DNA of 23,105 bases from a virus. The position numbers and the translations under genes are program-made. Positions 19,933 to 23,105 of this stretch are shown in pieces. Positions within the stretch are counted from its first letter, which is position 1. Every line of letters begins with the position of its first letter. The notes below the pieces were generated by a model that worked only from the letters and a program-made list of their open reading frames with translations, searched no databases and was not told the DNA's origin. The stretch spans positions 1-23,105 of IMG/VR virus record IMGVR_UViG_3300028608_000085, one strand, 5' to 3'.

Positions 19933-19957
19933 AACCGAAAAGGGGGCGTTTTCGGTT
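19933..19957 (-). repeat. 9-bp perfect inverted repeat at end of Q-like gene
   Basis: AACCGAAAA and TTTTCGGTT flank a 7-base GC-rich loop. The repeat overlaps the TAA stop of the Q-like gene. It could end the early transcript weakly or serve as a protein-binding dyad; it is not followed by a T tract on the coding strand. Confidence 0.7.
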
Positions 19958-20438
19958 ATCCAGCTCGACGCAACTTTGACGCAACTTTGAGGAGACTTTG
20001 AGGCAAAACGCCCCGACCAGCGGTAAGCCATTGACGAGCATCGGAACGCTCGGCCAGCACCACCAGCAGTCGCTCATGCAGGCGATGCACCTGATCGTAG
20101 TAGGTCTGTTTCGCTCGCGACTCCAATCCCAGCAAATGTAGCTGCATCGACCAGGTCGGCGCCGGATCATCGCCATAACGCAAACCAGCCAACCGCATCA
20201 ATCGATCACCCTGCTCATCCTGACGCCCGATCTCCGACAGCGCCGCCCCTACTTGCTGGGCAACCGCATCAGGCCCAGCTCCTGCACCGAGGATGATCCG
20301 CGATCCCGGAGTGCCGCGAGGTGCCGACCCACCCCACTCCATGATGGTCGCCATCGGGCTACCCATGCCGCCGCTTTCGCCGTTCAGTCGGCATTGCTCA
20401 CCCCAGTGCTTCAAAACCGCTTCCATTGCCCCGATCAT
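19956..20438 (-). CDS. Putative late transcription regulator, antiterminator Q-like
   Basis: 160 residues from the ATG at 20438, whose ATG overlaps the TGA of the preceding ORF (ATGA); a second Met (MEAVLKHWGEQ) lies 4 codons in and is also possible. The layout resembles Q-type antiterminators and sigma-4-like regulators: an N-terminal LKHWGEQCRLNGES block, a helical middle (AQQVGAALSEIGRQDEQGDR), then RAKQTYYDQVHRLHERLLVV as a possible helix-turn-helix region. This is a fold-level impression, not a firm family match. The position, last early gene just before the late leader and terminator, strongly fits a Q function. The 3' end contains three tandem 11-mers. Confidence 0.6.
   Translation of the reverse strand: MIGAMEAVLKHWGEQCRLNGESGGMGSPMATIMEWGGSAPRGTPGSRIILGAGAGPDAVAQQVGAALSEIGRQDEQGDRLMRLAGLRYGDDPAPTWSMQLHLLGLESRAKQTYYDQVHRLHERLLVVLAERSDARQWLTAGRGVLPQSLLKVASKLRRAG
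19967..19999 (-). repeat. Three tandem 11-bp repeats at the 3' end of the Q-like gene
   Basis: On the plus strand GACGCAACTTT occurs twice exactly (19967-19977, 19978-19988), followed by a diverged GAGGAGACTTT (19989-19999). It codes for the C-terminal residues of the Q-like protein. Because 11 is not a multiple of 3, the copies are read in different frames, so protein repetition is not the reason for the pattern. Confidence 0.75.
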
Positions 20439-20770
20439 CGCCCTTTCCCCCGAAAAACCGAACCCAACACAAAAAACCCGCAACCCAACACAAACCCAGC
20501 ACAAATAAATCCCTTAAAAATCAATATCTTCAATCTATCTGTGTTGAGTGTGTTGGGTTTGTTAGGTTTTTCTGCCCTCGCATAAGAAAAATTTCCGCCC
20601 TCCGTTTTCGCTGTAAATAACATCACGCATGCGCGCACGCGACGCCAAACCCAACACACCCAACACACTGCCCGCAAACCCACGGGATTAAAGGCCTTAA
20701 ACTGTGCTGGGTCGCCAAAACCAACCCGACACACGCCCGACACACCCAACACACTATTAGGCGTATTCAT
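20435..20770 (-). CDS. Repeat-derived 111-residue ORF, function unknown (may be a DNA/RNA element rather than a protein)
   Basis: An ATG at 20770 overlaps the primase/helicase stop (ATGA), and its own TGA at 20435 overlaps the next ATG, so it is fully coupled in the operon. The protein (MNTPNSVLGVSGVCRVGFGD) has repeated Val-Gly-Cys-Trp-rich runs (VCWVCWVWRR, CAGFVLGCGFFVLGSV) and a KPNKPNTLNT segment, all of which are translations of one nonamer in different orientation and frame. This indicates that the nucleotide repeat, not the protein, may be selected. I recognise no domain. It may be translated simply to hand ribosomes from helicase to regulator, or encode a small hydrophobic protein. 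Confidence 0.5.
   Translation of the reverse strand: MNTPNSVLGVSGVCRVGFGDPAQFKAFNPVGLRAVCWVCWVWRRVRACVMLFTAKTEGGNFSYARAEKPNKPNTLNTDRLKILIFKGFICAGFVLGCGFFVLGSVFRGKGR
20463..20753 (-). repeat. Nonamer array CCCAACACA / TGTGTTGGG (iteron-like)
   Basis: Plus-strand CCCAACACA is exact at 20463, 20484, 20650, 20659 and 20745, with one-mismatch copies at 20495, 20725 and 20736. The reverse orientation is exact at 20549, with one-mismatch copies at 20540 and 20703. That is 11 copies in about 290 bases, some in tandem. A stretch of about 78% AT lies at 20504-20539. The primase/helicase gene is adjacent. Confidence 0.85.
20540..20667 (-). repeat. 22-bp inverted repeat within the nonamer array
   Basis: Arms 20540-20561 and 20646-20667 are reverse complements at 21 of 22 positions, 84 bases apart. 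In minus-strand RNA the single difference is a G-U wobble, so a continuous 22-bp stem can form. The loop contains the AAAAATTT-like AT-rich bases and a CGCATGCG palindrome (20626-20633). Confidence 0.85.
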
Positions 20771-23105
20771 GCTGCAGCCGCCTTGACGTGTTCCCAGTTG
20801 TCCACGTTCCAACCGGCCAACTTTGCCTGGGCACGCCAGTCACTTACCGTCTTGCCCAGATCGGCCGCCTTCAGTGATGGGGGCTGGGAAGCCCCGGGAT
20901 CGTTCGGAAAGAAAAACGCACCAAACCGCCGATTGCTGCCTTCAGTCCAGGGAATTGATCGGGTCTTATCGACTTCGGACCCTATGAACAGTGAAAACTT
21001 CGTCTGGCTCATCACGTGTTCTTTGTTGCGGTGGCACCACTCCAGGAACAGCGAGTAGAGATCGGTCGAAAGGCACACGCCCCACAAATCACGCCCCAGC
21101 TCGCCGTACTTCCAAAGGTTGAGGAATGTCTGCCAGCCGGCCCGACTCAATGCCACCAGCCGCTCGCGGGCAGCCGTACTCGGCGGCCGGGTGCGCTGGT
21201 CAAAGTCGTCGAGATCAATCGACAACAGCCAGCCATACAGCGCCGCGACTCCGCCGTTCTTCAGCTCCTGGCCGATAGCCTTCTGTCGGTCTGTCGGTAG
21301 GGTTAGCTCGGGCCACATCACCAGCATCCGCCGGTCGCTTTCGCTGATGGGCCACGGCAAGATTTCATTACTTAGGAACACCGCGTTCATGTGGTTGGCT
21401 TCTTCCCAGCCATTGATGAACTTCGACTCCATTCGCACCGTCTTGCCGGTGATCAAATGCTTGATCTTGCCCACCTGGTTGTACCGCTGATCGCGGCTGA
21501 CAACCTCTTCAAACACCGACCAGAGCTTGCGGCTTTGCCAGGCGTTGAAGTTGCTTTCAAGCTGGGTCTGTCCAACGGTGGCCGCGTACTGACCGTAAAG
21601 CATGCCCATCGCATCGGCGAACAGCAGGCTCTTGCCGGAACCCTCCATGATCGAATGCATCAACACAGCCGTGTCCATCTTGGCGCCGAGGTGCTGCAAC
21701 GGGTACGCCATCCAGCGCGTCAACCACCGCGTGGCATCCTGATCATGGTTGCAAAGGAACGAAATCAACCACCGTAGGTTCTCGCAGGCAGCCTCATCAT
21801 GGGTCGGTTCGAGTGGTAGTCCATCGAACGTGTTGATGTACACACTCGGATCTTTAGTCATCGTCGGGTCAAACACGATATGGTCAACATCAACCACCCG
21901 ACGCTCGCTGCTGTTCAACCACAAAGGGTAGGTATCACCCAAGGCCATCTTCACCGCGCCCTCGGCCACACGCCGTTTTTTCTCCCGGTCCCACACGTCC
22001 TTCGTGCCATCGATGTACACGTAACGCTCGGTTGGCGGCATACCAAAAGCACCACCTTTCTTGCCCGACATCCGCCGCGCCTGTTCGATGTCGCGAACAT
22101 GGTCATCAGAAATCAACTTGCGCCGCTCGGTGTCTTCCAACCACTGCTTCGCCAAGGGTTTGCCGACGCGCGCTTCAAAAGCTGACTTCTTCATCACCCG
22201 CGATTGGTCGAAGTCCCAGACATGGGTCGTCCCCTCCACCAACGCAAACCGACGCAGGACGTGCTCAAGTGACAGCACCTCCCCCGCACCCCCATTAGGA
22301 GCCGGAGCGGCCTCGCTGATGTCGTCGTTCGCGCAGCTCGGCCCGGGCATGTCACCAGATGGGGTCGGGGGAAGATCACGCGGATCAGGACGGGATGAAT
22401 GCTGCATGCCCAACATGCGCGCAGCGTCCTTCACCGCCTTCGACTGATCACCGCCGTGCTCGAGCAAACAGAACACTTCAAAGGCGTCGTTCTGATGTCC
22501 GTTCGCCAGTGGATCGGCGCCGTGGTGCGAGTAGACCTTGCCTTCATCGCTGATCGTCACGCCCGGCAGACCGGTACTGCTCTGCGGGTACAGCCACTTG
22601 CTGCCCCGCTTGATATAGCCGTGGGAGCGAAGCAGCTCTTGCACATCGTGGCAACGGTTGAACTCATCGATCACCGATGGCCGATTACCCGTTGCAGATG
22701 CTGGACGCTTGACGACCTTCGCTGGCGGCGCGGCAGGTTTGATCGCCCAAGGGCACGCCGCTTCGGCATCACGCTTGAAGATGTCCCAGCCCTGCCAGAT
22801 ATTCAGCAAGTCAGCATTCAGCGTCGGCAGACCATCAGTGGCGCTCGGTGGAGTGCGCCAGATGTAAGGCTTGCCGGTGCCCGGGTGAATTGAAGGTGGG
22901 AACACATCCTGCACCAGCCCAGCGCGCAGCTCGAACACCGTGAAACGCTTGTACTCTTCTGCCTCGGCGCGTGCCGCAGCATCACCGGCCTCATCGCCCT
23001 GCTCTTTTGCCGCCTTGGCCTTAGCCATCAGACCTTTGTGGATCGAACCATCTGGGTCTTTTTCATTGGGCCACGACAGAGAATGCCGGGTCAGCTCGTC
23101 GCCGT
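20767..23105 (-). CDS. Phage primase/helicase (DUF5906-type SF3-like helicase), 5' end outside window
   Basis: The frame is open to the right edge; an internal ATG at 23028 gives 753 residues, but in-frame codons continue upstream (GDELTRHSLSWPNEKDPDGS), so the true start is most likely outside. Counting from 23028: residues about 120-208 look like a primase-linked winged/zinc-less accessory domain; the helicase core has Walker A MEGSGKS (461-467), Walker B LWSVFEEV (502-509), sensor NAVFLSNE (548-555) and a probable arginine finger SESDRRMLV (562-570). Residues 240-330 are a variable linker region. It would unwind and prime phage DNA. A DNA primase/polymerase domain may precede it, unseen. 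Its stop overlaps the repeat ORF. Confidence 0.88.
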   Translation of the reverse strand, partial: GDELTRHSLSWPNEKDPDGSIHKGLMAKAKAAKEQGDEAGDAAARAEAEEYKRFTVFELRAGLVQDVFPPSIHPGTGKPYIWRTPPSATDGLPTLNADLLNIWQGWDIFKRDAEAACPWAIKPAAPPAKVVKRPASATGNRPSVIDEFNRCHDVQELLRSHGYIKRGSKWLYPQSSTGLPGVTISDEGKVYSHHGADPLANGHQNDAFEVFCLLEHGGDQSKAVKDAARMLGMQHSSRPDPRDLPPTPSGDMPGPSCANDDISEAAPAPNGGAGEVLSLEHVLRRFALVEGTTHVWDFDQSRVMKKSAFEARVGKPLAKQWLEDTERRKLISDDHVRDIEQARRMSGKKGGAFGMPPTERYVYIDGTKDVWDREKKRRVAEGAVKMALGDTYPLWLNSSERRVVDVDHIVFDPTMTKDPSVYINTFDGLPLEPTHDEAACENLRWLISFLCNHDQDATRWLTRWMAYPLQHLGAKMDTAVLMHSIMEGSGKSLLFADAMGMLYGQYAATVGQTQLESNFNAWQSRKLWSVFEEVVSRDQRYNQVGKIKHLITGKTVRMESKFINGWEEANHMNAVFLSNEILPWPISESDRRMLVMWPELTLPTDRQKAIGQELKNGGVAALYGWLLSIDLDDFDQRTRPPSTAARERLVALSRAGWQTFLNLWKYGELGRDLWGVCLSTDLYSLFLEWCHRNKEHVMSQTKFSLFIGSEVDKTRSIPWTEGSNRRFGAFFFPNDPGASQPPSLKAADLGKTVSDWRAQAKLAGWNVDNWEHVKAAAA

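Follow-up and report, generated by a model that had tools for sequence, protein, structure and literature searches.

Organisation of the locus

The stretch of DNA analysed here (the window, 23,105 bp) is an IMG/VR virus fragment carrying terminase, portal, head and tape-measure genes. At one end it has a gene for a primase-helicase, the putative initiator (20767–23103, minus strand; open frame of 778 aa), whose 5′ end is cut by the end of the contig. Between the stop codon of this gene (20767) and the ATG of the next gene (20438) lies a gap of 328 bp, which is non-coding and is filled by an array of short repeats. With up to one mismatch, the nonamer CCCAACACA has 15 matches across the 23,105-bp window, where 6.0 are expected by chance; 11 of them, 6 being exact, fall within 20463–20753, in both orientations, where the chance expectation is about 0.08 per 291 bp. 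A search made de novo gives the same picture: the score for the best repeated 8-mer is 5.0 in the window, compared with a mean of 2.8 and a maximum of 4.5 in 300 shuffles, and it averages 7.5 in related loci.

The matches form two arms. Arm A, which resembles ori1 of phage P4, consists of S1 TGTGTTGGG (20745–20753), S2 TGTGTCGGG (20736–20744) and S3 TGTGTCGGG (20725–20733), all on the minus strand; S4 TGTGCTGGG (20703–20711), which is on the plus strand and so opposite in orientation to its neighbours; and, after a gap of 35 bp (20668–20702, 46% AT), S5 and S6 (both TGTGTTGGG; 20659–20667 and 20650–20658, minus strand). A central spacer of 83 bp follows (20567–20649), containing an alternating CG tract (20627–20641) and a T-rich/ATGCG element (20577–20595). 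Arm B, which resembles P4 crr, begins with S7, a twelfth and degenerate copy, TTTGTTAGG, with two mismatches (20558–20566). This is in 9-bp tandem spacing with S8 TGTGTTGGG (20549–20557) and S9 TGTGTTGAG (20540–20548), all three on the plus strand. The position of S7 is kept in relatives, most of which have a better copy there. Arm B continues across a gap of 36 bp, a proposed DNA unwinding element (20504–20539), to S10 TGTGCTGGG (20495–20503), S11 TGTGTTGGG (20484–20492) and S12 TGTGTTGGG (20463–20471), on the minus strand.

A previous sequence-only reading had described 11 copies, 6 of them exact, in both orientations within about 290 bases, with an AT-rich segment inside. The word count reproduces these copies, and the segment, the gap between S9 and S10, is indeed 77.8% AT (window, 42%). 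Three features escaped that reading: site 7, the division into two arms, and the fact, described below, that relatives have rewritten the word.

Some elements between the sites are conserved as well. The S9–S10 gap has a mean AT content of 66% in representatives compared with 41% for their loci (p = 5e-19), while in the S4–S5 gap AT is only slightly raised across representatives (46%). In most loci the central spacer has an alternating CG/CA tract, with a mean of 13 nt compared with 5.5 in shuffles, across word classes. The T-rich/ATGCG element that follows it is conserved in the window's clade. Both are independent of the word, being conserved though the words differ. A Z-DNA-prone stretch, a hairpin and a site for a host factor are guesses as to what they are. 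There are no DnaA boxes and no IHF boxes in the window's array. In two other loci (L176 and L179) the central spacer contains a perfect DnaA box, TTATCCACA.

The gene downstream of the array (19956–20438, minus strand; phrog_4300, E 3.1e-40; weakly PA0613-like) has a weak match to NF051483 and nothing credible in Pfam, and is not part of the putative origin. This gene and its homologues occupy the position where the lambdoid Q gene lies. In Halomonas phage H4907 the gene in the same position is annotated as an antitermination protein. The product is possibly a Q-type antiterminator.

The primase-helicase

Profile searches match the protein to phrog_1156, DNA primase (E 3.9e-108), and to DUF5906 (E 7.7e-18), the latter at an SF3-type helicase core in residues 484–592 (21328–21654, minus strand). 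The AlphaFold model of the C-terminal half has a pLDDT of 90.5. Its fold matches include the C-terminal region (CTR) of NrS-1 primase-polymerase (E 1.9e-20), the closest solved fold, which is a hexameric ring (PMC7102993), and the SaPI5 primase-helicase (E 5e-10).

Downstream of the core, the models have a domain with two helices followed by three strands, the pattern of a winged helix, at about residues 690–735 (20899–21036, minus strand). We propose this domain as the reader of the iterons. It is followed by a C-terminal tail (residues 736–778; 20770–20898, minus strand). The assignment as a winged helix is a prediction: it draws on the models, on a Pfam Pox_D5 match that has E 6.5e-4 in KT1 and is weak and below the cut-off in the window, and on a profile of the C-terminal region whose best PDB match, again the SaPI5 primase-helicase, is borderline (E 0.011). 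A PDB fold search with the model of the isolated domain gave no significant match.

The same helicase half occurs joined to primase halves that are unrelated to one another, either Prim-Pol or PriCT-2 with Toprim, in different members of the family (L002/L412 and L004/L413, compared with the window and L001). The phages with such swapped halves have contractile tails (PG1) or apparently non-contractile ones.

Conservation of the array

The comparison drew on 330 distinct loci whose sequence continues past the stop codon of the helicase gene, consisting of phage relatives and of contigs fetched by similarity of the primase-helicase. In 326 of them there is a repeated 8-mer 3′ of the stop codon that scores above the shuffle null. 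In the other direction, 116 viral loci were found by the word alone, and the helicase gene adjoins the array in 112; the rest are contig edges or a chance three-copy match. The juxtaposition of array and primase-helicase gene, on which the earlier reading had relied, is thus found in nearly all relatives. Among the loci found by word there were no convincing orphan arrays lacking the helicase, which might have been satellites, and no plasmid carriers were found.

Within the window's clade the sites lie at offsets of 16, 25, 36, 58 (reverse), 102, 111, about 203, 212, 221 (reverse), 266, 277 and 298 from the stop codon. The spacing is nearly fixed, length variation being mainly in the central spacer. 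In 100 close relatives, conservation is 94% at site positions compared with 77% at other positions (p = 6e-20). Moraxella phage Mcat3 and Halomonas phage H4907 also have arrays, with a helicase identity of only about 35%; in YuA, Chi and ZP6, which are remote lytic relatives, no array was found.

Variation of the word

The word itself differs between clades. The search de novo identified TGTGTTGGG, TGTCTAGGG, TTACTAGGG, TGGTTAGGG, TGTGCGGG and GCCGGAGG, as well as GTGCAGGG, GCCCAGGG, GTATACGGG, TGCCGATA and more. Average linkage on cross-recognition sorts them into 24 word classes; single linkage merged almost everything and was abandoned in its favour. On a helicase-core tree, the word changes at least 29 times, compared with 68–72 times for shuffled labels. 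The layout stays while the word changes between lineages.

Some arrays contain two words. In eight loci (L133, L139, L148, L149, L151, L157, L159 and L171), TGTGTTGGG is found only among the outer sites 1–3 and 10–12, and TGTGTAAGG only among the inner sites 4–9. In L367, eight sites are GCCACGGG and a single site, at offset 256, is still GCCCAGGG, the word of its relative L359, as if the array had been caught mid-change.

Relationship between word and protein

To see which part of the protein changes with the word, 24 disjoint pairs of loci with different words were compared with matched pairs having the same word. No locus was used twice, so that the pairs are matched but few. The loss of identity is small in the helicase (0.765 for different-word and 0.788 for same-word pairs) and large further on: identity is 0.509 compared with 0.675 in the winged helix (p 3e-5) and 0.412 compared with 0.561 in the C-terminal tail (p 4e-5). 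The helicase core also has slightly lower identity in the pairs whose words differ (p 0.003), which leaves a component of general divergence in the contrast. A sliding scan locates the loss of identity that accompanies a new word mainly at residues ~690–775, plus a shorter stretch of the linker, 340–354.

Natural recombinants help to tell the candidate readers of the word apart. L243 and L256 have helicase cores that are 96.5% identical, divergent winged helices, and different words. SC_9 and KT1 have a primase half in common (86%), and differ in both the C-terminal half and the word. Conversely, PG1 and pAN have an unrelated primase half (PriCT-2/Toprim in PG1) together with a similar C-terminal half of the helicase and the same word, and 117 pairs combine the same word with unrelated primase halves. 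The neighbouring genes behave differently. In L007/L061, L196/L198 and L359/L367 the downstream proteins are 83–94% identical and yet the words differ, while 177 pairs have the same word and no detectable similarity between their downstream proteins. The same word also occurs alongside different packaging genes: the window has a P27-type small terminase, and the terminase of phage Meadow carries the annotation DNA packaging protein A. In these sequence comparisons, the word tracks the predicted winged-helix end of the primase-helicase; it tracks neither the primase half nor the terminase nor the downstream gene. We consider it probable that the C-terminal domain recognises the word.

Comparison with known origins

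P4 is the classical member of its class and was chosen as the yardstick; it is the one origin that was compared in detail, using the annotated P4 record. The type I sites of P4 ori1 have spacings of 10, 11, 22, 43 and 10 and the orientation pattern ---+--, the fourth site being inverted. In arm A of the window the spacings are 9, 11, 22, 44 and 9 and the pattern is +++-++, again with the fourth site inverted. All six sites therefore match in orientation and, to within 1 bp, in spacing, a match that was not reached once in 20,000 random layouts of six sites. The full ori1 layout is also present in representatives of four word classes. For arm B, five of six sites agree with P4 crr when 2 bp are allowed, as happens in 0.2% of random layouts; the count includes a crr site with two mismatches. 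This is the weaker half of the likeness to P4. Overall the array resembles a joined version of P4 ori1 and crr.

There are further similarities. In P4, crr is directly 3′ of the alpha gene, as the array is 3′ of the primase-helicase gene, and alpha carries DUF5906, which is common to the window protein, as well as Pox_D5. The C-terminal origin-binding domain of alpha is a winged helix, according to Yeo et al. (2002) as cited in PMC10516667. There are also clear differences. P4 has ori1 and crr about 4.7 kb apart, whereas both arms of the window lie within 291 bp of a full-size phage; P4 has a duplicated crr, a primase half different from that of the window, and a satellite lifestyle. Its type I iteron is GGTGAACA whereas the window's word is TGTGTTGGG, though in this family of phages the word is itself variable. 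The two proteins are only remotely similar (24% identity over 126 aa), and TIGR01613, the P4 primase family, gives the window protein 23.9 bits, not reaching its cut-off of 108.7. We regard arm A as likely to be homologous to P4 ori1, while for arm B and crr the chances of homology appear evenly balanced.

The SaPI and PICI satellites provide a second parallel. SaPI Rep uses its C-terminal domain to recognise an origin that lies directly 3′ of the gene encoding it (PMC7581432), and an E. coli PICI origin, in the same place 3′ of the helicase gene, has been tested for replicon function (PMC6092414). The window shares this pri-rep-ori order, with the array directly 3′ of the gene for the putative initiator helicase; it shares two sets of short iterons flanking an AT-rich region (spacing was compared with P4 only); and it shares the fold seen in the SaPI5 match given above. 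In contrast to these satellites, which have no capsid genes of their own, the window belongs to a tailed temperate phage that encodes a terminase, a portal, a major head protein and a tape measure. For NrS-1, two copies of an 8-nt recognition sequence have been reported as a possible origin, compared with a 12-site array here.

Origins of Rep_3/RepA iteron plasmids also have repeated short sites beside an AT-rich segment and a replication gene. However, they use a dedicated Rep that is not a helicase, together with host DnaA boxes, whereas in the window the initiator would be the primase-helicase itself and there is no DnaA box in or near the array; the window sites also differ in being 9 bp long and in both orientations. 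A Rep_3-type origin was rejected in favour of the P4-alpha / SaPI-Rep kind, in which a helicase gene is followed directly on its 3′ side by short words that occur in both orientations.

Function of the array

The linkage to the helicase gene, the conservation of the sites, the tracking of the C-terminal end by the word and the P4 geometry together support the array as an origin or initiator-binding site. The sequence-only reading had made this proposal, which agreed with all of the computational tests, except that the iteron-plasmid type of origin which it had in mind was not borne out. As far as sequence can tell, the array is very probably the origin at which the primase-helicase encoded next to it starts replication, and belongs to the P4-alpha / SaPI-Rep type. 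Cumulative GC skew was uninformative: in four complete relatives it did not point to the array.

Other functions have to be weighed. Iteron arrays titrate initiators in plasmids, and the array might thus be a replication-linked accessory element for the helicase (incompatibility, copy number or handcuffing), with melting elsewhere; the separate crr of P4 indicates that melting does not take place at every cluster of sites. However, the four complete relatives have no second cluster of the word, the AT-rich gap is conserved inside the array, and arm A has the geometry of ori1, making this reading unlikely. An operator, at which the phrog_4300 product or a repressor would control downstream transcription, seems improbable too. 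The array directly precedes a gene that is placed like a late regulator, and operators with multiple sites exist, but the word and the downstream protein vary separately in both directions, no sigma-70-like promoter was found in the array region, and an operator would not be expected to have twelve sites across 290 bp in the P4 ori1 arrangement.

The repeats might instead act in the RNA of the primase operon, as hairpins, a terminator or an antitermination element. Copies in opposite orientation can pair, concerted change would preserve the pairing, and there is a terminator-like hairpin within the central CG tract. Against this, the array region matches no Rfam family at gathering score (weak sub-threshold matches only), the central spacer shows no better folding than shuffled sequence (DNA parameters), and pairing leaves unexplained both the many copies in the same orientation and the change of the word together with the winged helix; a role in RNA is very unlikely. 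Least credible is a packaging site (pac or cos) read by the terminase. The terminase genes are 1.5 kb downstream, but the window and Meadow have the same word with different packaging genes, the word tracks the C-terminus of the helicase instead, and in P4 such geometry is located at ori and not at cos.

Taking the array as an origin, replication might proceed as follows. The predicted winged-helix domain of the primase-helicase would bind each nonamer, and the protein would gather on both arms, perhaps as one hexamer per arm. The AT-rich gap between S9 and S10 would then melt, and SF3-type rings would load and unwind the DNA, with the fused primase priming theta replication. The step of one hexamer per arm is weak and is, on balance, doubtful, because only some representatives are mirror-symmetric: a 6+6 mirror layout is strong in L362, L363, L366, L368, L378 and L392 but not in the window's clade, and mirror scores are on average only slightly higher than random (3.3 compared with 2.2). 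Mirror symmetry was therefore rejected as a general rule.

On the same scheme, ori and crr of P4, which are separate, would correspond to the arms of an origin of this type that have been moved away from each other. More broadly, and tentatively, they may be halves of an ancestral 12-site, two-armed origin, still intact in many temperate phages and loaded as two hexamers, whose word has been rewritten at all sites dozens of times with its geometry kept. The two-word arrays and L367 would then be natural intermediates or functional classes of site.

The kind of origin is already known from P4 and from SaPI/PICI (PMC6092414, PMC7581432). What is new here is its presence in full-size temperate phages, with 12 sites, a conserved geometry and a rewritten word; in the open-access library that was searched we found no paper describing such an origin in these phages, although there may be one elsewhere. 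The layout of the PICI origin has been stated to occur in no other replicon (PMC6092414). The array bears on this view that it is exclusive to PICIs, and suggests a module common to satellites and full-size phages. If the proposal is correct, these phages offer natural initiator/origin pairs by the hundred, sharing one geometry and spanning at least 24 classes of word, making directly testable the long-standing question of how an initiator changes its specificity when a dozen sites must change too. The separate crr of P4 would be explained as a second origin arm, and replication origins could be located in many unannotated prophages. In Stenotrophomonas phage S1, a hypothetical gene (gp2; positions 2454–2804 of L415) is annotated over the array, and is probably not a gene.
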